Shown: positions 21,385-40,675 of the stretch, piece after piece
How the letters are laid out: each line of letters opens with the position of its first letter
Position numbering within the stretch: position 1 is the stretch's first letter
Assembly: GCF_030269925.1 (NCBI RefSeq)
Contig: NC_085133.1
Span: forward strand, 516,001 to 580,000
Direction of reading: 5' to 3'
Origin: Bombyx mori
Taxonomy: Eukaryota; Arthropoda; Insecta; Lepidoptera; Bombycidae
DNA length: 64,000 bases
Notes under the pieces: generated by a model
Seen by the model: the letters and a program-made list of their open reading frames with translations, nothing else
Database searches by the model: none
What the model was told of the DNA's origin: nothing
Position numbers and translations under genes: made by a program

Positions 21385-21720
21385 ATCTTTTTTATTTTTA
21401 TTGCTTAGATGTCTGGATGAGCTCACAGCCACACAGCCACAGGTGTTAAATGGTTTCTGGGGCCCATAGACATCTGCAACGTAAATGCCGCCACCCATCA
21501 TCAGATATAAGTTCTAAGGTCTCAGTATAATTACAACGGCTGCTCCACCCTTCAAACCGAAACGCATTACTGTTTCACGGCAGAAATAGGCCAGGTGTTG
21601 GTGCCTACCCGTGCGGACTCACAAGACGTCCTACCACCAGTAATTACGCAAATTATAATTTTGCGGGTTTGATTTTTATTACGCGATGTTATTCCTTCAC
21701 GTGGACGTCAAATCGGCAAA
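21385..21720 (-). mobile_element. Bm1-type SINE, head truncated
   Basis: Tail to ccttcacgtggacgtcaaat; a short duplication (cacagccacacagccac) lies near the tail. Confidence 0.75.
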
Positions 21721-22880
21721 TCAATTTTGTTCCCGCTACGGCAGAAAAAAAGCACGGGTTAAGCCTTCCATCACATGTTTCTTTTATCGACAACCGCTCA
21801 ACAGTAAGCCAACCCCAAATATTGATTTTTAAATTTTTTAGTATAACACAACTGTATAAAATCTCCACTTATTAACATTTAAATTAATTATTAAAAAATA
21901 ATACACTATTGAATTCACCCTTTTGGATGTGAACACAACATGCATAAGGTCGGTTTTGATGTCGTCATAATATGCTGACTTTTATTAAATTTATTAAATA
22001 ATAAAATAACAATATAGATAGATATAAAAACAAAACAAAAAATTAAAATTGTTTTTTTTTACGTTTTGCAGTATTTCAATTCAAAACTTAAAAAAAACAA
22101 TTAATTCATTAAACAAGAGGGTAATTATTGTTAAATAATAACCAAATGTGATGCACAGCTCAATGTAGGTCGTTATAAAACATGAAATTCAAATATAAAA
22201 AATAATATGTGGAGAAATGTAATAAAATGGATTGACAGCTTTGTTGATTAAGAATAATCCTTTCTATCTGTTAAAAAAAAAAACAACAATAAAAAGACAG
22301 ATATATCAAAATTGACTGAAAAAGCTGATTACGAAAATCGTTTTCAATGGCGTTGACCTCTTGAATAGACGCGCAGCTCTTATCGTAAATCGAGCTATCG
22401 TTGTCTCCGTCAACTTAAAAACGAAATTCTGTTCTATATGGGCTTACTAAAGACCGAAATTCTATTATCTTCGACAGATTTATAAATGGTTCTAGACTAA
22501 TGTCCGTTTTGTAATGCTAGTTCACTCAGAAAACCTTGGTTGGATCCTTTTGCAATAATGTAAATGACTTCATTAATTTAAAATTGAATACTTGTCGATT
22601 CGTTCAATTCTACATACTTGTCGAACTCGATCAAGAGTTTGTAGGGGAACACACACACATGCTTAATAACGTATGTGGCGTGTTACCTGGCTACGTAATG
22701 CAAGATGTCATCTTCACCATTCCACGCTTGTGGGAAAAGGATATTGGGACGACAGTCCAGTTGTAACGGCCATACAGCGAACACAGTTCCACTTAGATAG
22801 CTATAATAAAACTGTTGTACCTATTGTATTTCCCGTAAATATACAAGTGTGTGAGTTAATAACGACTTTCATTTACAACA
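21720..22880. other. No gene recognised
   Basis: AT-rich; open frames here are short and show no family resemblance. Confidence 0.4.
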
Positions 22881-22884
22881 ACTG

Positions 22885-23145
22885 GGCTCATCCTAAAGAG
22901 TTCGACGTGCAACCTACCCCATGCATTAGCTCGCTAAGTTTCTCGCCGGAACTTCTCAGCGGGTTGCGATTCCGATCCGGTAGTAGATTCATTCGCGAAG
23001 CAGTTGCTCTTGAGTTGTTAGGTCTCCTTCGGAGGCGCTCGGGCAGCTGTTAACAAACCCCACCCCTCCTGGCTGAGCCTTTGCTCGCTCACCTGTCCTG
23101 GTAAAACTTGAAAGGCCTCCGGGCCACCAGTAATCCTTCAATCCA
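22885..23145 (+). mobile_element. LINE 3' end (family 2)
   Basis: Same marks as 15975-16350, ending in A-rich DNA. Confidence 0.7.
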
Positions 23146-23499
23146 AAAAAAATAATACTCGAATCTCTCTTCTTCATCGTTCCCTCACTGCTGAGGATCG
23201 TGACCACAGATGACTTTCCTCCATAGTGTCCGGTCATGGGTGTCATGGGCATGGTATAGACCACCACCAACTTTCAACTGGGTAAATCGACTTTCTATGA
23301 TTTTTTTATTTGAAAGTTGGTGCTTTCCGTGTTCTTCCTACTTGGTCCAGTTCTGTCAATGGCACCCATGAGAACTGCGGCTGATGTCGACTCCGAAATT
23401 AAAAATAATTGTAACTACATTATAATATTATCGTAATAAAAAGTTATAGAAGAAAGAATACGCAAATATTTTTTTTACTTTTTTGTGTATAGGTATATG

Positions 23500-23640
23500 T
23501 GACTATACTTGAGTCCTTAAAACTTATATCTCAAGGTGGGTGGCGCATTTACGTTGTGGATGTCTATGGGCTCCAGTAACCACTTAACACCAGGTGGGCT
23601 GTGAGCTCGTCCAACCATTTAAGCAATAAATAAATAAAGA
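23500..23640 (+). mobile_element. Bm1-type SINE, 3' third
   Basis: From cttgagtccttaaaacttat to the A tail. Confidence 0.75.
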
Positions 23641-23979
23641 AGTCGGTTATGATTTTTTTTAGGCAGTTTTTTGGTTTTTTTTTGTTTATAATTCACATAA
23701 TATAATATCTAAGGAAGTTATCGAACAATGAATTTAGCAGTGCACATCACTAATCCAACGAAAGCTAACATCGCGAGATAATATCGATGATCGCTGACGG
23801 CCACACTAGCACCGGACCGCATCATCCAATCCACGATGACACTGAGTGTAATAACCCTGTGACGTGTATGGACATTATGGTATTGGTGATGGAATAATTA
23901 CTGAAAACTCCTACTCACTCACTTTTAAGACGAACACCTATTTTCTTAGGTGTTCGTACACAGTACGTTACAAGTATCG

Positions 23980-24232
23980 TTACTGGTGGTAGGACCTCTT
24001 GTGAGTCCGCGCGTGTAGGTACCAACACCCTGCCTATTTTTGCCGTGAAGCAGTAATGCGTTTCGGTTTGAAGGGTGGGGCAGCCGTTGTAACTATAATT
24101 GAGACCTTAGAACTTATATCTCCAGGTGGGTGACGCATTTACGTTATATAATATATGTCTATGGGCTCCAGTAACCACTTAGCACCAGGTGGGCTGTGAG
24201 CTCGTCCAGCCTTCTAAGCAATAAAAAAAGTT
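23980..24232 (+). mobile_element. Bm1-type SINE, head missing
   Basis: Starts ctggtggtaggacctcttg; a short duplication (tatataatatatg) lies in the lower body. Confidence 0.8.
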
Positions 24233-24234
24233 TA

Positions 24235-25440
24235 AAGGATTATGTATAGAAACTGATCTAAAGCCATAACGAGTTGTTGGTACGGTTCAGTCTAGATCTG
24301 CCGCCAAGACGAAGGTTTGGGTCTAACCGCTTTTTTTATTTATTCAACTAAAGTTCATTGTCTTCTTTTACAATTGTTCCATATGGATATTAATTAAAAT
24401 TTATAACCGTTTACCTGATATTTTCAAGGATAAAAATAATCGATAATTCAAAAAGGATGTAAAGTATTTTTTGAAAATAACGTTATAATGATAGTGGTTA
24501 ATTTTTAAATGATAACAATATGTAATCGATTAGATCTATTATTTTATGGGTTTAATCGATTATGAATGTAATTAAATTCTTTATGACTATAATTTATGAA
24601 TATTACAAATTAATATGTTAGTAATCTTCAATTAATTCTATATTTATTTTATATTTGCACACTTTTTATTCAAGTAAAAACATGCTGGATTGTTAAAATT
24701 ATATAATACCATTATTTATGTACCATATCTGTGGCAAATAAATCGTTTTGAATTTGAATTTGAATATTATCTACTTAAAAAATATTAATTTACAATATCT
24801 GGTCATATCTAGCTTTCGCACATCGGTGTGGGCTTTAGACATCATCACATATCAAGTCAAGTTGATGACTCACTAATCAGCACGTAGTCTTCACTAACAT
24901 TCAAATTCTCAGAATCGTTTACAAAAATAGCATATAGCTTCAATAAAATTGCTGCAACTCCACTGTTCTCCGCATTCCGTAAGAAATCAATAAAAACAGA
25001 GACTAGCTATCTCCTGGACTATTTATTCATAGCACGGTAGCCAATATTGATTAACTTATCATTCCCATGCGACATTTACCTAATTCTTATTATTTAGGAT
25101 ACTTTTATTCGCTCTTGAAGAGCTCAAGCTCAAGCTGGACGAGCTTTGAGGTCAGCTTTAGAATTGGAATAGTTCTTGACGTGATTTGTCCTGAACTATG
25201 ACTGGTTTCCTTACACGAGAAACGAAATAAAGACTAAATAAATGGAAAATACTTAGAAAATCTAATGTTCCTTGAACTTTGGAACGCAATATCGAGTGAA
25301 ATCACTAAATCGAAATATTCTGAAAAATAATGAGCGAGAGAAATATGTTTTCGCAATGCGACGGTGCTAAAAAAGAATATTGGAATTGATTTAGTCAACA
25401 AAAAAAAATATTTATGAATAAATGTTGTTGGCATTTTTTA
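24235..25440. other. No gene recognised
   Basis: AT-rich, no supported frame or repeat. Confidence 0.4.
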
Positions 25441-25447
25441 TTTATTT

Positions 25448-25755
25448 TTGGAACGAAGTTCCTTATCGCGCGTTGTGAAAGGGGGCTAGACGAAAAAAAT
25501 TCTTACGAAAAGTTGTCACGACACTTTTTAGATCCGACATTCTGACCAATCAACGTGTAGGCGCTTATCGCGTGACATTGCTCGTATCCGATTGGTCCGC
25601 GTAATGAGTACAGTTTCTCGAGATAGCGTTTCAACAATAGTAATTTAGTTCATAGTATTGTTTTTTTCTTCTTCATAATGCCGTAATTTATTATTATAAC
25701 TTAAAAAAAAATACAACTCCTTCACTAATTAATCGAAAGGAACTTCGTTCCATCC
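25448..25755. mobile_element. MITE candidate with ggaacgaagttcct ends
   Basis: tggaacgaagttcctt at the left and its inverted counterpart aaaggaacttcgttcca at the right frame about 300 bp without a frame. Confidence 0.5.
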
Positions 25756-25779
25756 GGGTGTCCCTTGACACCTCTAAAG

Positions 25780-26025
25780 TTTTTTTATTGCATAGATGGG
25801 TGGACGAGCTCACAGCTAACACCAGGTGTTAAGTGGTTACCGGAGCCCATAGACATCTACAACGTAAATGCCGCCACCAACCTTAAGATATAAGTTCTAA
25901 AGTCTCAGTATAGTTACAACGGCTGCCCTACCATTCAAACCGAACGCATTACTGCTTCACGGCAGAAATAGCTAGGGCGGTGGTACCTACCCGTGCGGAC
26001 TCACAAGAGGTCCTACCACCAGGTA
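25780..26025 (-). mobile_element. Bm1-type SINE, head missing
   Basis: Tail to gtcctaccaccaggta. Confidence 0.8.
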
Positions 26026-26489
26026 GTAGTACCACACTGTATTATAACAAACACCCCAGAAATCGATTAGGCTGGATGGTATCCCACCATATCTTTGGCA
26101 CATCTAACCATTCAAACATTATACTCATTTAATACGTTTAAAGAAAAAAAATTAAAACCTCTTTCAAATGCAACAGTTACCAGCGACCCGTCAGAATAGT
26201 TTGAAAAATAATCATTCTATGTGACAGGCTACGAAAAATCAGTTCCAACAAATACTGCAAAATTTTCAGTTTAAATTTATAAAAATCTTTCACTAACAAT
26301 GTCATTCTAATGTTCAGAGTACGTGAGTTTGTTTGTATTAATTGTTTATAAGGAGCACTAGTAATTTATTTACAAATATTAAGAGTGGATAGTACACGTG
26401 AAACATTTAAGGCAAGGGTTCGAGAACTGTTTCTCATCTAATTGATATTTTTATATGTATATATTTATGTATATGCAGTTAATTACGCC

Positions 26490-26700
26490 AGGTGGGGGAG
26501 GAAGGTCCTCGAATGGAGGCCACGGGTACAAGGAGCGTGGGGCGTCCTCCAACCAGGTGAACTGACGACTTAGTGCGCACGGCGGGAAGTCGTTAAATGC
26601 GGAAGGCGGAGGACCGTATTATGTGGAAGGCATTGGGGAAGGCCTATGTCCAGCAGTGGGCAGATAAAGGCTGATGATGATGATGATGATGATTTAATTA
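26490..26700 (+). mobile_element. RTE-type LINE 3' end with (GAT)n tail
   Basis: Words tggaaggcattggggaagg, cctatgtccagcagtggg and a TGA/GAT run are common 3' ends of lepidopteran RTE elements. Confidence 0.55.
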
Positions 26701-26707
26701 AGTTTTT

Positions 26708-26785
26708 TAATTTTTTTTTATTGCTTAGATGGGTGGACGAGCTCACAGCCCACCTGGTGTTAAGTAGTTACTGGAGCCCATAAGT
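26708..26785 (-). mobile_element. Bm1-type SINE, tail fragment
   Basis: Only the tail up to ctggagcccata. Confidence 0.7.
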
Positions 26786-26956
26786 TCAAGTATTTTTATC
26801 TATAAAAATTATGTATGTAATATATTACATATGTTTAAGTAAGTAGCTAATATCACTATAACACTACATCTAATAAGGTTCATCTCTGCACTCCCCTAAT
26901 GTCAGAGAATGCCTATGGCATTAAGTCCGCCTTTATACTGTAAGTATATAAAGTTA

Positions 26957-27392
26957 CTATATATTAATACGTGAAGCAAAAACTTTGTACCCCTTTTTAC
27001 GAAAATTGCGCGGACGGAGGAGTATGAAATTTCCCACACTTATAGAGAATATAGAAAAGTGCAGAATGCTAACATATTTTTAAAATTATGCATTAAAAAT
27101 ACATTAAATCAATAAAGAAAATATTACATACACTACCATGTATTTGACACACACACACACACACACATATACCCTTTATTGTCAAACTTTTGTTATTACT
27201 TAAAGTCTAGTCAAATTGAGAATAGGTTAATATTCCTTATCTTTAATATTACGAGTATTTGTCTATAGTGTAGTCTTGGCGAAATCTGTGACTATAGAAA
27301 TATAATAATAGTCTTTGACAATACAACCATAATAATGTCCAAACTTATAATTTCAATTAATTATAGTCGAATTTCTACTACTGCAGGAACAC
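26957..27392 (+). mobile_element. Non-autonomous Helitron-like element, + strand
   Basis: Begins ctatatattaatacgtgaag and ends near actactgcaggaac. The terminal CTAG is lost where the adjoining SINE starts. It contains an (AC)n run. Confidence 0.65.
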
Positions 27393-27514
27393 TTTTTTAC
27401 TGGTGGTAGGACCTCTTGTGAGTCCGCACGGGTAGGTACCACCGCCCTGCCTATTTCTGCCGTGAAGCAGTGATGCGTTTCGGTTTGAAGGGTTGGGCAG
27501 CCGTTGTAACTATA

Positions 27515-28216
27515 GGCGATCCGCCCGGTCCTCTCGGACTGGGTGAATCGCGACCGAGGACGTCTCACCTTCCGAGCGACGCATGTGCTCACGGGACACG
27601 GCTATTTCGGTCGCTACCTGCACCTCATCGCCCGGAGGGAGCCGACGCCGAAGTGCCACCACCGCAGTGGCTGCAAAGAGGACACAGCGGAGCACACGCT
27701 CGCGTACTGCCCCGCTTTCGCGGAGCAGCGCCGCGTCCTCGTTGCAAAAATAGGACCGGACTTGTCGCTTCCGACCTTCGTGGCTACGATGCTCGGCAGC
27801 GATGAGTCCTGGCAGGCGATGCTCGACTTCTGCGAGTCCACCATCTCGCAGAAAGAGGCGGCGGAACGGGAGAGGGAGGGCGGCCTGGCAGAGCCGCCGT
27901 ACCGCGGAGACCGACGTAGTTGGTCGTCGACTATCGCCTCGACGACCCGTCGGTCGGGCGTCCTCGGGGTGGCGCCCCGTGTATGGTTGTAGTGTTGACC
28001 GCGGGAACCCCCTTACTCTGATCGGGTTCTGACCCCGGACGGAGATCGGACGTCGGGTGTAAGAGTGCAGGGGAGTCGTTTAGTGGGTGGATCCTAAAAT
28101 CTTTGGGACCGCGATCTGCTCTCAACACCTGCAGATCGTTGAGTCTCACATACCCCGCGCGCCCCCTAGGTGCGGGAACCTCGTAGGAGGTTCGGCCCCT
28201 GGCCCGAAAAAAAAAA
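27515..28216 (+). mobile_element. R1-clade-type LINE, 5' truncated, 702 bp
   Basis: Encodes the end of ORF2 with a Cys-His knuckle (Cys-His-His-x3-Gly-Cys ... His-Thr-Leu-Ala-Tyr-Cys), then about 220 bp of 3' UTR and A10. It is GC-rich against its surroundings. A 3'-end fragment of the same family lies at 60343-60432 (-). Confidence 0.75.
27543..27992 (+). pseudogene. LINE ORF2 C-terminal fragment
   Basis: Zinc-knuckle-like tail of an R1-type reverse transcriptase protein: Gly-His-Gly-Tyr-Phe-Gly then the Cys/His cluster. The RT and endonuclease domains are absent by 5' truncation. Not functional as it stands. Confidence 0.65.
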
Positions 28217-28359
28217 GCCGTTGTAACTATACTGAGACCTTAGAACTTATGTCTCAAGGTGGGTGACGCATTTACATTGTAGATGTCTATGGCCTCCAGT
28301 AACCACTTAACACCAGGTGGGCTGTGAGCTCGTCCATCCATCTAAGCAATAAAAAAAAA

Positions 28360-29110
28360 TACTATAAAATAAATAATATAGGTTACTGCTCGGAGTTTCT
28401 CAGTCGGGTCAATCTTCGGTAGAAATCAATTTCTGTGTAGGCTCCTCCATCTCCAGTCGAGGCTATTGCTCCCAAGCTCCACGCCGTGCGCTAGACAATG
28501 AACCCGTGTCGCGGTCGTTTCTGATTCAGGATTCACTATTTGAAATTACAAGATCAGTGAATTGACCGTTCTGATGCTAAGTGAATAGCCACCGATAACA
28601 GAGCTAGTAATAATGCTTTATTTGATTCCACAATAATTAGGTAGAGCTTCATTAATTTAGTATTTAATAATTATTTATTTATTTATTTTATTTATTTATT
28701 TATTTAAAGCTTACCAGCAGGGCTTACAGTAAGACATAAAATAACATTGACATGTATAGAGCAATTGATAACTGCAACTCTAATTAGAGGCAATCACAGC
28801 ATGCATTACGTTACTATATCAACAGAGATTTAACAATACTAATAATAATAATAATAAAAAAACAAAAACAAAAGAAAGACAACAAGGACAGTAATACCCG
28901 AGTACTTAGACCAAGGCTAAGTAACCATATTATACTATTACTAAGTAACCATAATAAATCTACTACTCATGCAATTTAATCTCCTTCCTTGACGTATCTT
29001 GTATTGCATAGCTGTATCGTTGGAGCTAATGATTGGTTCACAGCAAAAATAGGCAGAGTGATAGTCCGTGCGACTTTACAATACGTTTTATCAACAGTAA
29101 AGATGATCCC
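28360..29110. other. No gene recognised
   Basis: AT-rich; a (TTTA)n run at 28670-28705 and an (AAT)n run near 28840. Confidence 0.5.
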
Positions 29111-29111
29111 A

Positions 29112-29310
29112 TAGACAGTCCACTGAGTTTCTCGCCGGATCTTCTAAGTGGGTCGCGTTTCCGATCCGGTGGTAGATTCTGCGAAGCACTGCTCTTGCTA
29201 GGGCCAGTGTTAGCAACACTCCCGGTTTGAGCCCCGTGAGCTCACCCACACGTCAAGGAGAAGCTGAAATAGCCTCTCAAGGCTATCAGCGTAGGTAGGA
29301 AAAAAGAGAT
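29112..29310 (+). mobile_element. Jockey-type LINE 3' end (family 1)
   Basis: Contains gtttctcgccggatcttc, tggtagattctgcgaagc and ctctcaaggctatcagc. Confidence 0.7.
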
Positions 29311-29632
29311 GACTAGAATGTAGGTTCGCCACATTGACGTGACACGTTTCAGGCGCCGCAAACACGGTCACCATGTTTTGAATAATGGGTCTTGTCCACC
29401 GATGCGTCCGGCTCGTGGTTACCGTACTCCTGTCGCTGTTTGGATTGAGTAGCGCTTGCACGAAGAAGGTCTACATTGCTTGTCGATCTCCTGCTCCGTG
29501 CACCAAGTGATTGGGTGGTAAGGTTATTGTTGCCTTAAATCATAATATTAGAAGTATTGCATTCGGTTAGCCATTTAGTTTATTGTGGGAGTTTATACGA
29601 GCATTTCGATCTAAAACAGAAAATTGTCTGAG

Positions 29633-29815
29633 ATTTTTTTTTATTGCTTAGATGAGTGGACGAGCTCACAGCCCACCTGGTGTTAAGTGGTTAATGGAGC
29701 CCATAGATATCTACAACGTAAATACGCCAACCACCTTGAGATATAAGTCCTAAGGTTAGTATAGTTACAACGGCTGCCCCACCCTTCAAACCGAAACGCG
29801 TTACTGCTTTCTGAT
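29633..29815 (-). mobile_element. Bm1-type SINE, head side missing
   Basis: Tail to aaacgcgttactgcttt. Confidence 0.75.
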
Positions 29816-30100
29816 GACTGTTCGGGATTCTGAGGACTGATCGGCAATCGAAGCCGGATGTTGTGGTTTCAACACTTTACCAATGGTGATGGCGGAACTC
29901 GAACTGCTAATCAAGTATAGCAATGTATTTATCCAGTTTGGGGATGACTAGTATCTATTGAAAATCTATTCTCAACAACGCTACGTTAACGTAGACTGAA
30001 TAATTTAGCTAGTTCTAGGAATGAAAGCGATTTTATAAATCTTAGAATGCGATTCAGAATACGTAGGTATGACTAAGCGCAGTTTGTTTCAGGTATCAGA

Positions 30101-30238
30101 ATGGCCAAGTTCACTCACAGCTTGTACATTATACTGTTTACGTTAATCTCTCTGTTTATATTCGGCGCGTCTTGTTGCAAGAAGAGTATTCCGTGCACTG
30201 GACGAGCGCCCTGCAGGCGTGGCCCTTTTAGGAACTGA
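30101..30238 (+). CDS. Micropeptide A, 45 aa, hydrophobic segment plus Cys-rich basic tail
   Basis: The product is unrecognised. Seen: residues 8-23 are strongly hydrophobic (many Leu, Ile, Phe) and could be a signal peptide or a membrane segment. The tail has Cys at 25, 26, 32 and 38, with K27 K28 and R35, R39, R40, R44, ending Phe-Arg-Asn. The spacing C26-x5-C32-x5-C38 with Pro37 before the last Cys matches the other four frames of the locus. The ATG lies 8 nt after the splice acceptor at 30091-30092, with A at -3 and G at +4. The stop is 6 nt before the proposed donor at 30245 (GTATAA, the weakest donor of the set). Inference: a secreted or membrane-anchored peptide of 20-25 residues with one or two disulfides. 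Length is too short for the frame alone to be convincing; the family repetition carries the call. Confidence 0.7.
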   Translation: MAKFTHSLYIILFTLISLFIFGASCCKKSIPCTGRAPCRRGPFRN

Positions 30239-31034
30239 AAATTGGTATAAATAATAATAATAATTTATTTATTTATCTCTTAAAGGTATAGTACAAATAC
30301 AAATGAAAATTAACATTATAATTTATATAAAAAAATATTTATAAAATATCTGTATCTCTATTTAATTTTCTTTAGAATGGTCTCTAGAAGAAATTTGTAA
30401 CGAAATTTATTACATAAGTAGACTAGCTATGCTTGGAATGCAATAAAATTAAAAATAGTAGTGTCGATGACATTTTTGTTACCAGAGCTTGCTAATCTTA
30501 TGACATAATATGTACAATTTGTAAGTTTTTTTTTTGGCGATTGTAAATTATAATTTTAGTTGATATGTTTGAATACTTTTAGCTTTTGATGTGAAACATC
30601 TATAGCCGCACGTAAAACCGATTTCTGGCGTGGCGACGCATGCCGTGGCGACGCGTCGCCATGCGCAATCGACTGTGCGATTCTCTCCCACTCGATTCGG
30701 CGTTAAGCCATCTCTCTCGCTACACTGAGCTCGGATACCTATAGTGTATACTCCGTAGTGTATACAGTGCTGTTTACTACAGTACACATAACCTGTGTTT
30801 TACTTGATAACAATTTTTTTTTGTAATATTTTATTTTATCATTATGACGCATTTAGTCCCTATCACAATCTGTTCTTTTCTGCATATTACTTTTACAAAA
30901 TAATGTCGATGTTTCACATCTGCCAGGTGTCCCGTGACGGCTCACATTTTTGATTAGAATATGAATAAAAACCATTATATTACGTTAAATGACAGAAAAC
31001 TAAGCTTAAAAATGCCGTGTTTGTAAGCCAAATC

Positions 31035-31112
31035 AATGCCATTATCCATGGGTGACGGTAACCACTTGCCACCAAATGGGCTAGAAACTTGTCTACATAT
31101 AGCAATAAAAAA
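31035..31112 (+). repeat. Family 3 tail fragment
   Basis: catgggtgacggtaaccac to an A run, in the intron between micropeptide exons A and B. Confidence 0.5.
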
Positions 31113-31569
31113 GTCCAAAATATGGCATGTTAGGATTTGTTCAAACGATTGAAACGTGTTTGAGTTAAACTAACAATTGAGTCACCGCGGACGCGACTCG
31201 GAGAAGACATTAATGCAATTGCTCAATGAATCCGATTAATTTTACGATAATGTTTCGTAATTGAACCGGTTCTAGTATTCTTGGCAGTGATCTAACGTGT
31301 GCCGTTGGCTAGTTCCGCAAAAGAGTTTCGATCGGACCTAGAGAATAACATATGAGAGCTTTACAATATGGGCCGCGATAAAATTATTCACATTTGATAA
31401 TTTGGTTTATATTACCGACGTAAGATAAATAAATCGAGTAGCGTTTCAAGGCTTTTCATTTTTCTTTTGATAATGGTGGAGCGTTTAAGGCCGTTGTTTT
31501 GGACTAGAGAAATGTGTGCTTGAAATTCGGTTATACAAATGGCACAATTTTCCGATTGGCTATGACATG

Positions 31570-31722
31570 TCCTTCTTCAAACGAGGCTTGTGGAGAGTAT
31601 TAAGTGGTGGGCAGCGGCTTGGCTTTGCCCCTGTCATCGCTGAAGTCCATGGGCGACGGTAACCACTCAGCATCAGGTGGGCCGTGTGCTCGTCTGGCTA
31701 CAAGGGCAATAAAAAAAAGTTT
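31570..31722 (+). repeat. Family 3 tail
   Basis: cttcaaacgaggcttgtgg to an A run; also in the A-B intron. Confidence 0.6.
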
Positions 31723-31902
31723 TCTAATCATGACTATGATTTATGGCAATCGTAGACGAAGCATAGAGCAACGACCACAGAAATTTTAAATTCCATCTAT
31801 TTAATGAGTTTTTTTATTTTAAGGAAATAAGTTTGTTATTAAACAGATATGTCGGTAGGAGTATTGTGAGCATTCGCGAATGAGTACCGCCCATTTATGC
31901 TG

Positions 31903-32085
31903 CGATTTTTTTTATTTTTTAATTACATGATGTAATTCCTTCACCGTGGAAGTCAATCGTGAACATTTTGTTAAGTACGTATTTCATTAGAAAAATTGGT
32001 ACCCGCCTGCGGGATTCGAACACCGGTGCATCGCTAGATACGAATGCACCGGACGTCTTATTCTTTAGGCCACGACGACTTCACT
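31903..32085 (-). mobile_element. Bm1-type SINE, head half only
   Basis: From a T run to ccacgacgac; tRNA-like head intact (ggattcgaacacc on +), tail part missing. Confidence 0.75.
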
Positions 32086-32224
32086 TTGTTCCTATCACTA
32101 TTCAGTGGTATATTACCGAACACCTTTGTCAGCATAATTGGCGTGACGCGTTAACTTTGTTTCCACATCAACAGCCGCGTCACTCGGGGGCATTCATAAC
32201 ATTAACATTTCATTGATTTACTTA

Positions 32225-32345
32225 ATATCTTACACACACTACATACCATGTATTTGACGCACACACGCATGCATACTATTTATTATCAAACTTTTGTTCT
32301 TGACGTCTGTTGTCAAATTGAGAATAGAATAAATATAAATAAATA
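32225..32345 (+). mobile_element. Helitron-like internal fragment
   Basis: Shares accatgtatttgacgcacac and gttgtcaaattgagaatag with the other Helitron-like copies; both ends missing. Confidence 0.5.
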
Positions 32346-32424
32346 TTTACTAACAACCACGCCACGTTAACTAGTCCCGTGATAAGTTCGTTAAGAACTT
32401 GTGTTACAGGTACCAGATAACGGA

Positions 32425-32590
32425 AATAAATGTAAGATTTTTATTATACACATACATATATTTAAGATACATCCATAACCCTGGAAAAGACATTTATATT
32501 TATCATACAAATATCTTCCCTTGGCGGGATTCGAACCCACGACCCCCTTGTGTAGTGACCATGTCACTTACCACTACACCAGACGGCCGT
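32425..32590 (-). mobile_element. tRNA-headed SINE of a second family
   Basis: On - strand: box A-like tctggtgtagtggtaag, box B gggttcgaatcccgcc, then a body with ttccagggttatggatg. It differs from Bm1. It could also be read as a tRNA pseudogene. Confidence 0.65.
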
Positions 32591-32596
32591 TAGAAT

Positions 32597-32652
32597 CAAA
32601 GATTCTGTTGCTTAAAAATATTAATAAATATTTTTAAGCAACAGAATCTTTG
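32597..32652. repeat. Perfect hairpin, 26-bp arms, 4-base loop
   Basis: Arms 32597-32622 and 32627-32652 are exact reverse complements around AATA. It adjoins the tRNA-headed SINE. Confidence 0.85.
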
Positions 32653-33197
32653 AATTCAGTACAATGGTGGATACGTCCCCATATCTCAAAATGTCTCCCG
32701 TAATCACTGAATACAAGGCCGTAATTAAAAAACATAGACTGTTTAAAATTTGATGTTACTAAGATCATTTATTCATTATTATCCTTTAGTTGGACACTAA
32801 ATAGTTGTTTGAAACGCTACATCCGTTTAACGTTTAGACGAATTTGTAAACAAGCAGCATTTGATTTGGATTCCGCCTGTTTTTTATCTCCAAACTATTT
32901 ATTTTAATTGATTCTTTAGTTTTAGAAACGGTTTAAAAAAAAAGTTCTGCGCGTATTTCTGGGGAAATGACTCAGACAATCGTTTTCCGTTTTGAGGTTG
33001 CACGTAATGGAACACTGAATAATGATTACGTTTAGTTATTTTTGAATGTTGTATCCGATATTTTGGGTGCAGCACGGGTCGCGTGTTCGCTTGCGATGTA
33101 TTGGCTTACGTTGATGAGCTGGGAATCTTAGTGCAGGGAGGCAGCCATCGCGAAGTCTCAATTTGAAATGTATTCGAGGGAAGTAAGACAAGATGGT

Positions 33198-33445
33198 TTT
33201 TACTGGTGGTAGGACGTCTTGTGAGTCCGCACGGGTAGGTGCCGCCATCCTGCCAATTTCTGATGTGAAGCAGTAATGCGTTTCGGTTTGAAAGGTGGGG
33301 CAGCCGTTGTAACTATACCGAGACCCTAGAACTCATATCTCAAGGTGGGTGGCAGCATTTTTGTTATAGGTGTCTATGGGCTCCGGTAACCACTTAGCAC
33401 TAGGTGGGCTGTGAGCTCGCACACCCGCCTATGCAATAAAAAAAT
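33198..33445 (+). mobile_element. Bm1-type SINE, head missing
   Basis: From ctggtggtaggacgtct to the A tail. Confidence 0.8.
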
Positions 33446-33789
33446 CCACATCCAGAGGGAGAGAATATAAAGGTCGGTGGATGTCGTGAAACAAATACTA
33501 CCTAACTAATTGCCACTTAAATCTTTCTATCACTTGGATCTTCTAGTGTGTAGTTTAGAATTCAGTGTAAGTTTAGATAAGGCCATGAAGAGATTGTGGC
33601 TCTTTATTTATGCATAATATTATTTTTTATATCATCAGAAGTCTGTACGAGTATATAATGGTTTTTATTCAGGGCCAAAAATACGTGTTTGTTCAATCTT
33701 AAGATTAGAGTCGTAAAGTCGGTATTGTCAATGTACGTGCAAGCAAAAACTATTTTTGCAAAAGAAAACGGTAAAGTTAGTTTTTAAAC

Positions 33790-33975
33790 TACTTCTTCTC
33801 CACCTTATCCCACTAGGTGGGGTCGGCACAGCGAATTTTTCTATTCCATTCTCTTCTATTAGCTGTCATCTCAACACTCACTCCTCTCTCTCTCATATCG
33901 TCATTCACACACTCCATTCATGTCTTCTTCGGTCGACCTCTTTCCACTACCATTTCCATACATCTCCTAGTCAAA
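33790..33975 (-). repeat. Dispersed lepidopteran repeat (ccactaggtggggtcgg)
   Basis: ccttatcccactaggtgggg and CTCTCTC-rich DNA. I know the wording as a common Lepidoptera repeat, possibly an RTE end. It lies just upstream of exon B. Confidence 0.4.
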
Positions 33976-34057
33976 TGCATCAGGTTTATAAAAATTGGTT
34001 TGTATTGGTTTTATGTTTCGTATAGCAAATAATGATGTTATTTAAACAGCCGAAGTG

Positions 34058-34180
34058 ATGAGCGCTTGGAAGCCGCTAGTAGCTGCTTTTTATTTATTGG
34101 TGATCTGCGTGCTGGAAGTCATCGGATGCGGGAGCAAACGTATCACGTGTAACCCTGAGAATCCGCCGTGCAAGAAATAA
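34058..34180 (+). CDS. Micropeptide B, 40 aa, hydrophobic segment plus Cys tail ending in KK
   Basis: Unrecognised family member. Residues 6-22 form the hydrophobic segment (containing Cys17). The tail after Gly23 has Cys24, Cys31 and Cys38 spaced x6 and x6, with Pro36-Pro37 before the last Cys and Lys39-Lys40 at the end. The Ile-Thr-Cys-Asn core and the Glu-Asn-x-Pro stretch are shared with micropeptide C, which suggests these two exons are the most recent duplicates. The ATG is 8 nt past the acceptor (AG at 34048-34049), G at -3. The stop TAA overlaps the exon end: one base follows it before the donor GTTTGA. A hAT-type MITE sits only about 30 bp into the following intron. Function is unknown; secreted or membrane peptide is inference from the hydrophobic start. 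Confidence 0.72.
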   Translation: MSAWKPLVAAFYLLVICVLEVIGCGSKRITCNPENPPCKK

Positions 34181-34212
34181 GGTTTGAAAGTTATCGAATT
34201 CGTTGTTTATGT

Positions 34213-34465
34213 CAGGGGTTCCCAAACTTATTTTGTCTACTGCCCACTTTGAGAATTAATTATTTTTTAGCGCCTTCATTTTTTCATCTATTTAAAAATT
34301 AATATAGTGAGAGCTGAGTCGGTGTCTAAGAGTACTCATAGATAAAATTACAAATCACCTCCAAAGCCTCACACAAAACCCCCATTTTATTTGGGTCTCT
34401 TACCGCCCTCCTTTAGGCCTGAAGCGCCCACAAGGGGACGTTATTGCCCACTTTGGGAAAGGCTG
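34213..34465. mobile_element. hAT-type MITE, 253 bp
   Basis: Ends caggggttccc and gggaaaggctg; flanking 8-mers gtttatgt / gtttatat look like a target duplication. A sister copy lies at 47624-47868. Confidence 0.7.
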
Positions 34466-34774
34466 GTTTATATCAACAGGATCAACTGCTTCTAGCAACA
34501 TAGATTGGATATTGAGATGCGGGAAACCGATACGAGGTTGAGTATAGGGGGCATTCTAGACCAGCCTGGTTCTTAGTGATTATCGGATCTTATAGATGTT
34601 ACCACTTGAGCACCGACATACATACGACTTGAAACATTAGATCAAAGTCTCGTATTGTTTTGCGTAACTACATAAATAAGTGTATAACAAATTATACATA
34701 AATAACTACATGACATAAATGATTTGTCCAGTAATTAAGCAAATTGTCATTGTGTTGCACTTTTGATATACGTT

Positions 34775-34868
34775 GCTGCCTCTAGCATTGCTGCTGTCTA
34801 TAAGCGACGGTAGCCACTTACCATCCCGTTGGCAGAATGCTCGTCTGGATACAAAGGCAATAAAAAAA
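34775..34868 (+). repeat. Family 3 tail fragment
   Basis: gcctctagcattgctgctg to an A run. Confidence 0.5.
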
Positions 34869-35544
34869 ACACGTGTGGCACTCGGGGACTGCCGCGGTAA
34901 AGCTATTGCATAGCACATTTTTATCAACTTATGCAATTATAATTGGACAATAATAATTTAATATTAAAACAATAATAAAATAAGACCACGCTATATTTAT
35001 AATCACATGGAACAGAGTGGCTCAAGAAAGAAAGGAATGGAAAAGGTTGGAGGAGGCCTTTGCCGACTGGCAAACAGATCTAGGAAAGATAACCAAACAA
35101 CAAATATTAGTTTAAATTTATTCATATCTATTAAGTTTTAGATTTTAATGCTAAATTTTACATAAGTTTAAAAATTCATTGTACTAAGAGATCTGAATAA
35201 AAGGCTATATTATTATTATTATATTTATAAACATTAACAAAAGCAAAACATTAACTTCCCCTTCACACTCATAAGCTAGACCGCGCGAGAGAGAGACGGG
35301 CAGACTTTTCATGATGCGCATGCAGTGCGATGTCACGCCGCGCGTTTATTCACAAACACTAACAAGCGCAACGTGTGAATGTGTTGAACGCGAGCTACAT
35401 GGTAGGCGGAGTGTGGTGTTAGGTTTTATTTTCGTTACGGAATTTCTTGATTCGGTCGTCGCGCTCAAAGCCCGCGATAAAAGCTATGCAATAGCTTAAA
35501 AACTTCAAATGTTCTGTGTTGAATTTGATTGCAGTTTGTAGGCG

Positions 35545-35682
35545 ATGGACAAAGCCATCATACAAGAGATCATAGTACTAGTGGTGACGTTACTGCTGGC
35601 TTACTTGGAGTCCTGTCTCGGCTGCACGAGGCACGAGTACATTACCTGCAACGAGAACAGCCCTAAGTGCGATAAGAAGTGA
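35545..35682 (+). CDS. Micropeptide C, 45 aa, hydrophobic segment plus Cys tail ending in DKK
   Basis: Unrecognised family member. Residues 9-21 are hydrophobic (Ile, Val, Leu), preceded by a charged start (Asp2, Lys3, Glu8). The tail has Cys24, Cys27, Cys35 and Cys42; C27-x7-C35-x6-C42 fits the locus pattern, with Pro40 near the last Cys and Lys44-Lys45 at the end. The ATG is 10 nt after the acceptor at 35533-35534; a second AG at 35540-35541 would leave only 3 nt. G is at -3 and +4. The exon continues 33 nt past the stop to a strong donor (AAG then GTAAGT at 35716). If spliced from exon B, the gap from the B stop to this ATG is 11 nt. Immediately downstream the intron takes in a dispersed repeat at 35755. 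Confidence 0.72.
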   Translation: MDKAIIQEIIVLVVTLLLAYLESCLGCTRHEYITCNENSPKCDKK

Positions 35683-35754
35683 AGATTTTTTAATATATTG
35701 AAGTGTCCTTTCAAGGTAAGTTCCAGATATCGCATACAAGAATATTGTAGTGAC

Positions 35755-35955
35755 TTTTTGGCGGGAACGCGAGGAGTGAAGTTGTGTGATCTGTTTTATT
35801 TTGTCTATTTAAGTGTTTCTTCAGGTTTAAATGTGTAATAACGGTGATTTATTAACTGTTTAATATCTGTGAAAGTGCAGAAATGTGGGAAAATGAAACA
35901 AAGCCGTTGGACGTAACTTCTCGGGTTCCTCCAAAAGTTCACTGAAAATCTCAGT
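35755..35955 (+). repeat. Dispersed repeat X, truncated by a LINE
   Basis: Starts gactttttggcgggaacgcg; same sequence as 41161 and (inverted) 50283. The C-D intron of the micropeptide unit contains it. Confidence 0.7.
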
Positions 35956-36110
35956 AAAGCGAAGCAGTTGCTCCTGAGTTAAGTCTCCTTCGGAGGTGCT
36001 CGGGCAGCTGTGAGCAAACCCCACCCCTCCTGGCTGAGCCTTTGCTCGCCCACCAGTCCTGGTGAAACTGGAAAGGCCTCCGGGCCACCAGTAACTCTTC
36101 AATCATAAAA
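35955..36110 (+). mobile_element. LINE 3' end (family 2), short
   Basis: cgaagcagttgctcctgag to ccagtaactcttcaatc and an A run; abuts repeat X. Confidence 0.7.
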
Positions 36111-36429
36111 AAAACGTGAACTACATTTATAAAGCTTGATTGTGCGGGGTTGAAATTACTCAAGCTAAAAGTTATGTTATGGTAAAAACTCGAAATCTCT
36201 TCCGACCATTATTGTTAGTGGCGTCTTATTTTAAAATTTTACTGCCAGATTTATGTACCAACTATTAGTGTAACTATTAGTGTTACCAACTATCATTAGG
36301 AAAATATTTTATAAGATTACTGATTTCTGAAAGGTTTGATGATTTTGGGGCTAATTTTTGTTCTTGTTTAGTTGGATTTTTTGGTAAACCAGTAAAAATT
36401 TTCGAATGAAAAAAAAAATGTTAGCCTAC

Positions 36430-36775
36430 TAATACCAATTTTTCCAATGAAATGTTCTCGATTGACTTCCACGCTGAAGGAATAACATCGTGTAATAAAA
36501 ATCAAACCCGCCAATTATAATTTGCGTAATTACTGGTGGTAGGACCTCTTGTGAGTTCGCTAGGTACCACCACCCCGCCTATTTATTTCTGCTGTGAAGC
36601 AGTAGGTAATTTAATGCGTGTCGGTTTGAAGGGTGGGGCGGCCGTTGTAACTATACTGAGACCTTAGAACTTATATCTCAAGTTGGGTGGCGGCATTTAC
36701 GTTGTAGATGTCTATGGGTTCCCCTAACCACTTAAAACCAGGTGGGCTGTGAGCTCGTCCACCCATCTAAGAAAA
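36430..36775 (+). mobile_element. Bm1-type SINE, tRNA head missing
   Basis: Starts ccaatttttccaatgaaa; tail lies 55 bp before exon D. Confidence 0.8.
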
Positions 36776-36836
36776 AGGAAAAAAATGATCTAGATCATTT
36801 AGCATCGACAGTTATTTTGCTTTTCGTAGTCCAACA

Positions 36837-37001
36837 ATGGCGCTGATCATCAATGAGTTTGTCCTGCTTCTGCTGCACATAGCGGTGTCAGTTTTTGACT
36901 TGACGCGCGGCTGCGGACGAAAACGGCAATGTGGCGACGAGGGTCAGCCCTGCGGTCAGTTCATCAATAAAAATCGAGTTCGGATGCTTCGGAAAACAAC
37001 A
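36837..37001 (+). CDS. Micropeptide D, 55 codons in this exon; its stop is supplied by the next exon
   Basis: Unrecognised family member. Residues 4-20 are hydrophobic; Gly25-Cys26, Cys32 and Cys39 give C-x5-C-x6-C with Pro38 before the last Cys. A basic extension follows (Lys45, Arg47, Arg49, Arg52, Lys53). The ATG is 7 nt after the acceptor at 36828-36829, A at -3 and G at +4. The exon ends in phase 0 at a good donor (GTAAGT at 37002) without a stop. Splicing to exon E puts TAA directly after codon 55. Splicing instead to exon F would add Lys-Lys and TAG, giving the same KK ending as B, C and E. Unspliced read-through would add seven codons before a stop at 37023. The two spliced endings are predictions that separate the polycistronic model from the exon-choice model. 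Confidence 0.68.
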
Positions 37002-37094
37002 GTAAGTCTTACTTTATGTGTATAGCTTAAATTTGGCTCTCATATTCTTATATTCAGTGTGTCTACTGTATTTTGCTCGTGGTAGCTCGGCAAG

Positions 37095-37260
37095 TAAATT
37101 AACCCATAGACACAGCCCACTGAGTTTCTCGCCGGATCTTCTCGGTGGGTCGCGTTTCTGATCCGGTGGTAGATTCTGCGAAGCACTGCTCTTGCTAGGG
37201 TTCATGCTAGCAACGTCATCAGGTTTGAGCCCCGTGAGTTCACTAAGCTAGGGGGAAAAA
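37095..37260 (+). mobile_element. Jockey-type LINE 3' end (family 1)
   Basis: Same marks as 29112-29310; D-E intron. Confidence 0.65.
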
Positions 37261-37444
37261 AAGCGCCCGCATGGGAAGGTGCCACCACTCCGGTTACCAA
37301 TTAAAATCAGGTGGGCTGTGAGATCCATGCATCTAAGCTATACATTTTTTTTGTACTAATGATTGTCGAAGTAGTTGATTGTGAAATCAGCAAGAAGCTG
37401 AGAATACAATAGAAATCAGATTTAAATGTGAATGTTGCCTTATC

Positions 37445-37545
37445 TGATTTAGTCACTTCCGGTTTGAGCCCCGTGAGCTCACCTACATGTTAGGGTGAAG
37501 CTGAAATAGCCTCTCAAGGCTATCAGCATAGGAAAAAAAAGGAAA
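37445..37545 (+). mobile_element. Jockey-type LINE 3' tip (family 1)
   Basis: ggtttgagccccgtgagc to ctctcaaggctatcagc and an A run. Confidence 0.6.
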
Positions 37546-37818
37546 AAAATCTGATTTAACAGCATCCCGTGGACCTCGCTCTAGTGTATTGTGATTGTCA
37601 ACGGGCATATATTGGTGGAAGGACGAATTGTATGCCCGCATTTCCTATAGTTCCAGACGTCATATTTCCAATTCCTAAAGGGTGGGGAAGCTTTTATACA
37701 ATACTATAAACCTTAATGTGTAAAGGCGAAAGGCTGCATTCACTGTCTGTTGTCTCTATGCCCCGATAACTGTTTTACATTCAATTATTCTTGTATTACA
37801 TTGCAGTAAACAGAAGAA

Positions 37819-38778
37819 ATGGTCGAAAAGTGTATGCTCTTTTTACTTTACATCATCATATTGATCGTGATGGTTTATGGGTGCAAGAGCAGAAGACGTT
37901 GCCCCAAGTATTGCCTCCCGTGTACCTATAAAGGACCCATAATTGAGGTCTTGTCTCCTAAGCCGGTTAGTTTTACATTGAACTAATATATTATTTGTAT
38001 CACTGTTGAATAGTAACAGAAGTGTTAGCGAAGATTTGTTTAAATATTGAGCTGCTTGTGTACTATGCTACAGCATGTAGTACGCTTGGAAAAAAAATAA
38101 CTTTCTGATTTTTTGTTGTCTGTTTGTTCCTAACGCCATCATATTATGTGTACCAGAAGCTAAAACCACAAAATTACGATTATATTAAATATGGCTTGAA
38201 GGATAATTGTTTGAAATGTTGAATGGAATCTGGTCTGGAACAAAGTTAGACCATGCAGAAGCAACCAAAGCTAGTAATCAGGTCGATTGTTGATAGTCTG
38301 CTGTCGTCTGAAGTGTTTAGCGAGTTATCAGACATCACATCACTTGCAATTAAGTCAGTCTTAATCCTACTCGATAAGGCTTATCCTACCTTCAAAACCT
38401 ACCCGCTCGGCCTTCAATACTACTTATTTCTGCCGTGAAGCAGTAATGTGTTTTGGTTTGAAGGGTGGGGCAGCCGTAGCTATACTTGAGACCTTAGAAC
38501 TTATATCTCGAGGTGGGTAGCGCATTTACGTCGTAGATGTCTATGGGCTTCAGTAACCACTTAACACCAGGTGGGCTGTGAGCTCGTCCACCCATCTAAG
38601 CAATAAAAAAAAGTAATAAATCGTATTTCCATTATTTTGTCTTATATTGACTGAAGTTGTCCTATGTATCGTTAAAATCTATCAACAAACACAAGTGAAA
38701 TGATCTCTGACGTTGGCACTAACAGACGAAATGGTTGGGTTAAATAAACTTTTTTGTTTTTGTTTACAGAAAAAATAG
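37819..38778 (+). CDS. Micropeptide E, about 51 aa, two exons (37819-37965, 38770-38778)
   Basis: Unrecognised family member. Residues 6-20 are hydrophobic. Gly21-Cys22, Cys28 and Cys35 give C-x5-C-x6-C, with Pro34 before the last Cys, an extra Cys32 and an Arg triplet (25-27) between the first two. Exon E starts at 37807 with TAA (the stop of frame D after splicing), and this ATG follows 9 nt later. Its frame is open to the donor GTTAGT at 37966; joining to the acceptor at 38768-38769 adds Lys-Lys and TAG. Without splicing the frame would run seven more codons to a TAA. The KK ending agrees with B and C and supports the splice. A SINE (38425-38615) occupies the intron. Confidence 0.68.
38425..38615 (+). 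mobile_element. Bm1-type SINE, 5' truncated
   Basis: tatttctgccgtgaagcag to the A tail; E-F intron. Confidence 0.8.
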
Positions 38779-38846
38779 CGGAACTTTTTTTAAAGTTTGA
38801 TGTAACAGAAACGTTTTTGTAATAAAAAAGTTAAGATAATTGAAAA
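38770..38846 (+). other. Shared 3' exon of the micropeptide unit
   Basis: A T-rich acceptor ending in ttgtttacAG precedes AAA AAA TAG, in frame with exon E (and equally with exon D). An AATAAA lies 43 nt after the stop codon, so this is a plausible last exon; the 3' end itself is inferred. Confidence 0.6.
38821..38826 (+). terminator. Polyadenylation signal AATAAA of the micropeptide unit
   Basis: Canonical hexamer 43 nt downstream of the stop codon in exon F; cleavage would be expected near 38840-38850. It fits the exon model but hexamers are common in such AT-rich DNA. Confidence 0.5.
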
Positions 38847-38916
38847 GCTTCTTATTTTCTCTAATTTAGATGTGTAAAAGATGTTTATATCTTTCATCTT
38901 ATATCTTTTATTATCT

Positions 38917-39160
38917 TTACTGGTGTAGGACCTCTTGTGAGTCCGCACGGGTAGGTGTCACCACCCTGCCTATTTCTGCCGTGAAGCAGTGATGCGTTTC
39001 GGTTTGAAGGGTGGAGCAGCCGTTGTAACTATACTGAGACCTTAGAACTTATGTCTCAAGGTGGGTGGCGAATTTACGTTGTAGATGTCTATGGGCTCCA
39101 GTAACCACTTAATACCAGGTGGGCTGTGAGCTGGTCCACCCATCTAATCAATATGAAATA
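38917..39160 (+). mobile_element. Bm1-type SINE, head missing
   Basis: Lies between the micropeptide unit and Sec24. Confidence 0.8.
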
Positions 39161-39227
39161 AAAATTATATTCCACTACGTGTGAAATGGTTTCATTAGGA
39201 GTATGCCGTCATCCAAAATGAGACGTG

Positions 39228-39340
39228 TGAGGGCTGCCCCAACCTTCAAACCGAAACGCATTACTGCTTCACGGCAGAAATAGGCAGGGTGGTGGTACCT
39301 ACAAGCGCGGACTCACAATACTTCTTACCACCAGTAAAAT
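39228..39340 (-). mobile_element. Bm1-type SINE, middle fragment
   Basis: ggctgccccaaccttcaaac to ttaccaccagtaaaa. Confidence 0.75.
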
Positions 39341-39344
39341 ACTC

Positions 39345-40675
39345 TCTCTGCATAATTTTCTCACATACGATTCCTTCCATCTGCTGCGATCCTTGGCTTG
39401 GTGAAGGGCATCGTTGAACTTGATGTTGAGAGATCGAATTTGGTCAGACCATATCGTGGGACTGCGCCCTCTGAGACGTTTGTCCTACATCAGCTGTTCA
39501 AGATTGTGACCCTCATTTCCAGCAATGTGTCCAAAGACCAATACTTTAGGAAGGCATATGGCTAACGGTAGATATGGTTACGATTGTTAATAATGAAACG
39601 AATATTTAAAAATAATTCATATATATTTATTTACAATTCCAGACTCCTTTATAACAATTAGATACTAAGAATTATAATATCGGCACTAATTAATTACATA
39701 ATAGGGGTTTCTGCCAAAAAATTGTTGACGTTTTCAATGAGACAAGGCGGCGGCCGCACCCACGTGAGGCATGAGGTCGGGGACGGTGTCATGGGACCGC
39801 CTCAAGCCGCTTGTTCATAGGAACACGAACTTGACAACATTCCCTTGACAGAGACGAGGCGTCTGGTGTTGCAATATTCAAAAATAAAATTACATCAAAC
39901 TGATTTATCCTTCAAATGATTTCTACAGTCTTAACAAATCACACTAAAGTATATTCTTTTGCGCCGCCATTTTGAAATCGATTTTGAATCGCTGCAATAA
40001 TTTTTTGAGCATTGCAACACCGCGCCAACTTAAACTATGATTACATGCAAGTCAAATCGGAAACGGTTCGCGAGACGAGGGACTAAGAGTACTGAGACGA
40101 GACGGGAGGGTAGTCACAGTTGTACTTCACTTTTGACGGGTTTTGACGGTAGGCGCAACAGTTTTAAAGGGGTAGTTTTTTCCACTACCCTCAAAACATT
40201 ACAGGGTATTGCGTTCTCACGTGACGAGTACAATTTAAAAGATGTCTGTATTCGTATCGACACGACTTTGCCGGGGCTCGAAGCTGATTCGTAGGTACAA
40301 TGGTCCCTGGGAACGCACTTATCTCTGTAAATCGAGACGCGACGACGTACTCCAGTTTGGTACTCATAAGAAAACTATATAGATTAACATTTACTTTTAC
40401 GAGTATACCAAACAGTCTCCTATTAATTATTAACCAAACAAAACTCATAACATTTATGTCTTTATATAGAAAACAGCTATCTGTGTTGCCAGCTACAAAA
40501 TTAATTCGAACGCTCGACGGTGTTGCCATCTCTTGTCACTGGACAGCAATACAAATACAAAAGTCATGAAAACGTTTCATTAGTATTTTGTTTTAGCATT
40601 ATTTTCGAGTTGGGCGTCAAAGTGAATTGAAAATACGTATTTTTAAATTATTATACCTGGCAGTCACCCACACGT
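39345..40675. other. Region between the convergent genes, no gene recognised
   Basis: Mixed composition with GC-richer blocks near 39750 and 40060. Frames up to 112 codons exist on both strands but none shows a family or splice pattern. Confidence 0.4.

Follow-up and report, generated by a model that had tools for sequence, protein, structure and literature searches.

Do short open reading frames (ORFs) lying in series at one silkworm locus belong to a single gene that yields several peptides from one message, or to several neighboring genes? The window analyzed here is a 64-kb stretch of Bombyx mori DNA, and all coordinates below are window positions on the + strand. Six short ORFs of one layout follow one another on that strand within 8.6 kb. 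An earlier note on this DNA had described five such frames, A to E, and a final exon with a stop and AATAAA. Inspection of the sequence recovered all five where they had been placed, and exon F indeed carries TAG, with AATAAA at 38821. The count itself did not hold, as ORF 0, upstream at 29385–29510, had been missed and raises the number of members to six. Each predicted exon from 0 to E holds a complete ORF, except that D and E receive their stops from the following exon. The predicted features are as follows.

29353..29517, + strand, predicted exon 0; acceptor in top 10% of AGs (score 0.6), donor GTG/GTAAGG at 29518 in top 1.6% of GTs (score 4.4)
29373..29381, + strand, two-codon minimal upstream ORF ATG TTT TGA, 3 nt upstream of ORF 0
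29385..29510, + strand, ORF 0, 41 aa; putative signal peptide followed by C-x7-C-x5-C
30093..30244, + strand, predicted exon A; acceptor in top 4.8%, donor GTATAA weak
30101..30238, + strand, ORF A, 45 aa
34050..34181, + strand, predicted exon B; acceptor score -0.63 (top 19%), donor GTTTGA weak
34026, + strand, alternative start of exon B; acceptor AG scores better (1.8), 32 nt before the ATG and 24 nt upstream of 34050
34058..34180, + strand, ORF B, 40 aa
35535..35715, + strand, predicted exon C; acceptor in top 9%, donor CAAG/GTAAGT in top 0.03% of GTs
35545..35682, + strand, ORF C, 45 aa
36830..37001, + strand, predicted exon D; acceptor in top 2.5%, donor ACA/GTAAGT in top 2.6%
36837..37001, + strand, ORF D, 55 aa; stop TAA from the first bases of exon E (37807–37809)
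37807..37965, + strand, predicted exon E; acceptor in top 4.9%, donor CCG/GTTAGT in top 2.8%
37819..37965, + strand, ORF E, 49 aa, or 51 with KK from exon F; stop TAG in exon F; the most divergent member
38770..38840, + strand, predicted last exon F; TAG at 38776–38778, short 3' UTR, AATAAA at 38821, acceptor in top 0.12% of AGs; 3' end placed tentatively at 38840

By inspection and hydropathy, all six peptides have a hydrophobic N-terminus with small residues around a putative cleavage site (SSA/C, GAS/C, VIG/C, CLG/C, TRG/C, and VYG/C); peptide D, read by eye, has T at -3 and G at -1. The residue before the first conserved Cys is A, S or G in every peptide (D again by eye), a feature that points to a signal peptide more than to a membrane anchor. 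The best 19-residue hydropathy values (1.97–2.53) would permit an anchor, but two features judged by eye disfavor one: acidic or polar residues toward the end of the segment in B, C, and D, and the small residue that precedes the first Cys. Thus, of the two possibilities previously raised, secreted or membrane micropeptides, the sequences suggest that a signal peptide cleaved before the first conserved Cys is the better fit and a membrane micropeptide the poorer. Such cleavage would release peptides of 17–30 residues with 3 or 4 Cys and a net charge of +1 to +8.

Could such frames arise by chance? A pattern scan for ATG-initiated ORFs of 25–90 aa with a hydrophobic stretch followed by C-x3..9-C-x2..8-C returned eight rows in the window, corresponding to seven distinct ORFs, six of which are the array members. 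The same scan gave eight matches in total across 20 third-order Markov windows of 64 kb, and four rows, or two distinct and unrelated ORFs, in 200 kb of flanking chromosome. The density of the layout pattern in the array is above chance. The members are also more alike than chance would give: when each was omitted in turn from the profile, the omitted member ranked first among non-training segments in five of six cases (E 2e-7 to 0.007), with HMM E-values of 4.6e-7 for 0, 0.0068 for A, 2.2e-7 for B, 1.7e-5 for C, and 5.1e-4 for D. The profile of the other five did not recover member E significantly (E 2.2, rank 13). Nine of the 15 tail pairs were not significant; the E tail paired with those of A and D at shuffle p values of 0.023 and 0.018. 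At the DNA level, exon–exon similarity reached z 4.0, and 2 of 30 flank pairs exceeded z 2 (2.7 and 3.7). Sequence comparison thus indicates that at least five of the six frames are related, in support of the tandem-duplicated family proposed earlier.

Local repeats cover none of the 1032 exon bases vs 38% of the 8456 predicted intron bases. Exons came out equally repeat-free in 3 of 1643 circular shifts (counting the unshifted arrangement) and in 39 of 20,000 random placements. The array ORFs have a GC3 of 0.58–0.72 against 0.39–0.40 overall across 28–40 kb, a contrast that is weak evidence because 150-nt flanks span 0.20 to 0.55. That the frames are chance or decayed ORFs without function, as the lack of homologues in the protein collection searched might suggest, is extremely unlikely in view of the similarity among members, the repeat exclusion, and the chance controls.

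At the sensitivity of the genome search, the family appears confined to this place. In the 462-Mb genome each peptide matched only itself, save for one weak match of peptide 0 (E 0.038, three stops), and exons 0 and C each have a single genome match at the DNA level. A profile search of 100 kb on either side gave no convincing extra copy. The next-best flank match, C27:443805-443870 (E 0.021), spans 22 aa that include a hydrophobic stretch and C-x5-C; it has no ATG and no third Cys and was rejected. Also set aside was a possible decayed seventh copy in the window at 33581–33655, too weak at E 0.075, with no ATG and one Cys after its hydrophobic stretch.

Joining the predicted exons in order gives ORFs of 41, 45, 40, 45, 55, and 51 codons (0 and A to E) separated by 15, 14, 11, 40, and 9 nt, which reproduces the spacings formerly reported from A–B to D–E (14, 11, 40, and 9 nt). 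The gaps contain no ATG. In this model, consecutive non-overlapping small ORFs share one predicted message, as in animal polycistronic small-ORF genes. The good ATG context claimed earlier is borne out, with a purine at -3 in all six and G at +4 in five. Stop-codon readthrough fusing all the frames was rejected, because three of the five gaps (14, 11, and 40) are not multiples of three.

Splice signals along the array are uneven. The donor of C scores 8.1, and those of 0, D, and E are fair (top 1.6–2.8% of GTs), whereas those of A (-3.9, equaled or bettered by 41% of all GTs) and B (-0.2, 11%) are poor. Within 300 nt downstream of A or B no donor scores above 1.1, and after A none exceeds 0.2. 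Of the donors noted earlier after exons A to E, that of C is thus near-perfect and those of D and E are fair, while A and B have weak ones. Donor signal past the true stops of 0, A, B, and C is significant (p 0.0018), carried by C and 0. An acceptor had likewise been placed 7–12 nt before each ATG; five of six members agree, but the B acceptor is weak and 34026 scores better. An acceptor-like AG at this distance precedes 49 of 1013 plus-strand ATGs (binomial 1.5e-6 for five of six), where both the distance range and the score floor were chosen after seeing the finding. When the full 40 nt ahead of the ATG are considered, acceptor scores stand out only slightly (Fisher p 0.02).

These weak donors of A and B bear on whether the members are instead small genes clustered side by side. 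Each gene would then have a 5' non-coding exon, followed by an intron that ends just ahead of the ATG, and would use a separate poly(A) site; the donors past the stops would be chance. Gene clusters for small secreted peptides are common in insects, and AATAAA or ATTAAA occurs in five of the six intervals. However, the 582 nt between 0 and A contain neither signal, and the 805 nt between D and E contain no AATAAA and a single ATTAAA. Given also the near-perfect donor after C and a D frame that is open into its own donor, we regard separate genes as very unlikely.

The same signals could instead mark a boundary between two adjacent polycistronic units, a bicistronic 0–A that terminates with the poly(A) signal at 30442, and B-C-D-E-F, transcribed from a separate promoter within the A–B interval. 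About 200 nt past the A stop lie AATAAA at 30442 and ATTAAA at 30448, where a transcript could end; the A donor is the poorest in the array, the A–B interval is the longest (3811 nt, with ten AATAAA), and the B acceptor is weak. Nevertheless, AATAAA is common by chance in AT-rich DNA, the acceptor-to-ATG spacing in the model is 8 nt in both A and B, and a promoter was identified for neither unit. We consider this division rather unlikely.

A further alternative accepts one pre-mRNA but makes it mostly monocistronic, with cassette exons alternatively spliced to a common 5' leader and one peptide per mRNA. With an acceptor so close to the ATG in five of six exons, any exon could follow the leader and become the first cistron. 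Exons 0 to E are all of 132–181 nt, and D and E end in phase 0, so that either reaches the in-frame TAG of F (D by eye). On the other hand, the fair to strong donors on 0, C, D, and E make serial inclusion the simple default, and no leader exon was found: a donor search of 15000–29352 outside repeats gave none scoring at least 6. Mostly monocistronic cassette use is accordingly judged unlikely.

Based on these data, we favor, with modest confidence, the view that a tandem-duplicated coding exon gave rise to one pre-mRNA, likely a spliced polycistronic message, and likely to six small secreted Cys peptides. The weak A and B donors, the weak B acceptor, the AATAAA at 30442, the unlocated leader, and the unrecovered member E count against this view. 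The ancestor would have had a 5' leader exon, one exon holding a whole ORF, and a 3' exon with a poly(A) site. Tandem duplication of the middle exon would yield the present array, because every copy brings its own acceptor, ATG, frame, and donor. The N-terminal signal peptide of each ORF would be cleaved immediately ahead of the first conserved Cys. Later ORFs would be reached by termination and re-initiation across the 9–40 nt gaps, and exon skipping would probably assist by placing a later exon beside the leader. With several stops lying ahead of exon junctions, the message might be a target of nonsense-mediated decay. Re-initiation after short upstream ORFs usually improves with distance and drops with ORF length (PMC5972666), so that gaps of 9–40 nt and ORFs of 40–55 codons are not favorable to it.

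The collections searched offer no relative. The six-member alignment gave 14 candidates in the protein collection, none at E <= 1 (the search used at most 100 words), and peptide C alone gave no candidate sharing three words. This negative carries some but limited weight, because Lepidoptera are represented in the collection by at least one protein (a Sec23/Sec24 trunk domain protein of Pararge aegeria) and short unannotated peptides are easily absent from it. Pfam returned sub-threshold matches only (best E 0.081) and PDB sequences none that is a relative (best E 0.26); neither showed a match to a curated antimicrobial, toxin or neuropeptide family. Among viral contigs, searched with peptide D only, 59 pattern matches included no relative. 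The earlier note, too, had recognized no family. Insect antimicrobial and immune clusters such as the Bomanins and cecropins also consist of tandem small secreted, often cationic peptides, as here, although these are separate genes and the array has no Pfam match above cut-off. Titles and abstract beginnings of the literature matches listed reported no such silkworm gene, and the main text of a silkworm small-ORF survey (PMC9841908) does not contain polycistronic, cysteine, tandem or signal peptide; some of the frames may be in its supplements.

In tarsal-less/polished rice/mille-pattes, one mRNA carries several short ORFs for related peptides and re-initiation gives access to a later ORF (PMC9622821); a serial order of short ORFs on one message is likewise what the spliced model of the array predicts. 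Pri peptides are described in a review as 11–32 aa long, with a shared LDPTGQY and no predicted structure (PMC11475943). The array peptides differ in having 40–55 aa, a hydrophobic N-terminus with a Cys tail, and one ORF per predicted exon, and LDPTG(Q/L)Y is absent from all six translations by eye, in line with the earlier view that they are unlike those peptides. By description rather than peptide sequence, Drosophila CG43200, with several small ORFs on one fly transcript (PMC4568590), is similar to the predicted array. The hemotin locus (CG43194 and CG43210) potentially gives a polycistronic RNA; of its two small ORFs, one encodes a putative transmembrane peptide (PMC4807881), and their lengths of 88 and 59 codons contrast, again by description, with six ORFs of one layout here. 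According to the review cited above on Pri peptides, polycistronic transcripts carry 32 of the 298 small ORFs that are conserved between fly and human (PMC11475943). Polycistronic small-ORF genes are thus already known in animals; one secreted-peptide cistron per exon would be a different build. If true, it would show how a multi-peptide mRNA can come about by plain exon duplication, offer six successive steps at which re-initiation could be tested in an insect, and bring to a model animal a peptide family that has no known relatives.

A more specific version of the six-cistron mRNA from exon duplication, possible but doubtful, is that the co-made secreted Cys peptides pair by disulfides, with mRNA linkage setting their proportions. 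Four of the six peptides have an odd number of cysteines.

The five short frames, A to E, which the earlier note had described as Cys-tail micropeptides encoded one per plus-strand exon, are all present in the sequence as described. When both strands were scanned for short frames that open with ATG and encode a hydrophobic stretch and then three spaced cysteines, a sixth family member emerged, ORF 0 (29385-29510), 0.6 kb upstream of A. The window yielded eight rows: A to E, a nested ATG of E, an unrelated frame at 45513, and ORF 0. With the same scan, 20 simulated windows gave 8 matches in sum (0-2 per window), and 200 kb of flanking chromosome gave 4 rows representing 2 distinct frames, neither of which was matched by the family profile.

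Leave-one-out profiles, each built without the member sought, retrieved five members as the best new segment in the six-frame window: 0 (E 4.6e-7), B (2.2e-7), C (1.7e-5), D (5.1e-4) and A (0.0068); member E reached only E 2.2, at rank 13. Tail-only comparisons (1000 shuffles) gave values ≤0.025 in 6 of 15 pairs (0-A, 0-C, A-E, B-C, B-D and D-E), the other nine being not significant (0.137 or more). Exon DNA showed weak similarity in several pairs (z up to 4.0); intron flanks mostly showed none, with two of 30 flank pairs at z 2.7 and 3.7. Third-codon-position GC is high in the ORFs (0.58-0.72), which carries little weight because flank GC spans 0.20 to 0.55. There is thus good support for the family and for its arrangement of one ORF per exon, with five members backed by sequence and the sixth, E, by layout.

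Repeats, defined by matches to 200 kb of flanks and the remainder of the window, cover 38% of intron bases and 0 of 1032 exon bases, an arrangement equalled in 39 of 20000 random placements and, counting the unshifted position, in 3 of 1643 shifts. Six stretches in or beside the array introns, each with 96-98 local repeat matches, are likely one SINE-like family, as judged by eye:
28002-28377
29613-29809
33193-33452
36427-36814
38417-38628
38890-39352

The predicted message joining exons 0-A-B-C-D-E-F is 1032 nt long and carries six ORFs in series. It reproduces the gaps of 14, 11, 40 and 9 nt previously noted for A-E; with ORF 0 included, the gaps are 15, 14, 11, 40 and 9 nt, and none of the five contains an ATG. 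In the model, exon E supplies the stop of D, and the last exon, F, supplies that of E, followed by a ~60-nt 3' UTR with AATAAA at 38821. Scored with insect splice-site weights, not trained on this sequence, the acceptor of F is strong, the donor of C near-perfect, those of D, E and 0 fair, and those of A and B poor; for the four ORFs that end within their own exon (0, A, B and C), the donor signal after the stop has Fisher p 0.0018. Modelled acceptor-to-ATG distances are 7-12 nt for five exons and 32 nt for exon 0; in exon B, the modelled acceptor is outscored by an AG lying 32 nt ahead of the start codon. One further element could regulate the array:
29373-29381, plus strand, two-codon minimal uORF (ATG TTT TGA), 3 nt before the ATG of ORF 0

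The interval from 0 to A has no poly(A)-like hexamers and that from A to B has many, so two separate units, 0-A and B-F, are a less likely alternative. A single polycistronic mRNA across the array appears the likeliest reading.

For tal, one report (PMC9622821) describes loss of the next ORF's translation once the first ORF's stop is removed, indicating 5'-to-3' re-initiation. According to a review (PMC5972666), re-initiation after short uORFs usually requires distance and short ORFs; in Drosophila, DENR-MCT-1 aids it whatever the distance where a short uORF has a strong start context, and this support drops as uORF length rises. All six array ORF starts have a purine at -3, which, with gaps of 9-40 nt, would suit DENR-MCT-1-type re-initiation. 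Exon skipping would be a likely complement, because ORFs of 40-55 codons would render such re-initiation inefficient.

The residue directly before the first conserved Cys is A, S or G in all six peptides, and that at -3 of the predicted cut (placed by eye in D) is S, G, V, C, T or V; signal peptidase prefers such residues at -1 and -3. Predicted mature peptides have 17-30 residues, three Cys (0, B, C, D) or four (A, E), and net charges from +1 (C) to +8 (E). The odd Cys number suggests disulfide pairing between chains. Cationic secreted peptides like these could be immune effectors or signals.

The window is 516001-580000 of contig 27, and the whole genome searched comprised 461,668,930 bases in 30 contigs. 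Each peptide matched only itself there, bar one weak match for peptide 0 on contig 20 (C20:1240145-1240252, minus strand; 40% identical, three stops, E 0.038), treated as noise or a very old relic; this search did not find the paralogues from one another, and therefore distant copies could escape it. DNA searches of the genome gave one match each for exons 0 and C. No relatives were found in the protein collection, Pfam or PDB sequences, nor of peptide D in viral contigs. Two segments matched the profile weakly:
33581-33655, between A and B, without ATG (E 0.075); possibly a decayed further copy
C27:443805-443870, plus strand, contig 27, ~72 kb before the window begins (E 0.021); a hydrophobic stretch then C-x5-C, without ATG or third Cys, perhaps chance or an old relic

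Two neighbouring features were recognised:
52759-53067, minus strand, Sec23_trunk match (E 1.1e-12) in a Sec24-type gene downstream of and convergent with the array; other minus-strand exons of this gene were recognised by eye alone
58796-59968, reverse transcriptase frame (RVT_1 E 2.6e-29), presumably a retroelement of non-LTR type

A further frame, at 61115-62590 and rich in proline and glutamine, could represent the N-terminal part of the Sec24-type gene, as judged by eye.
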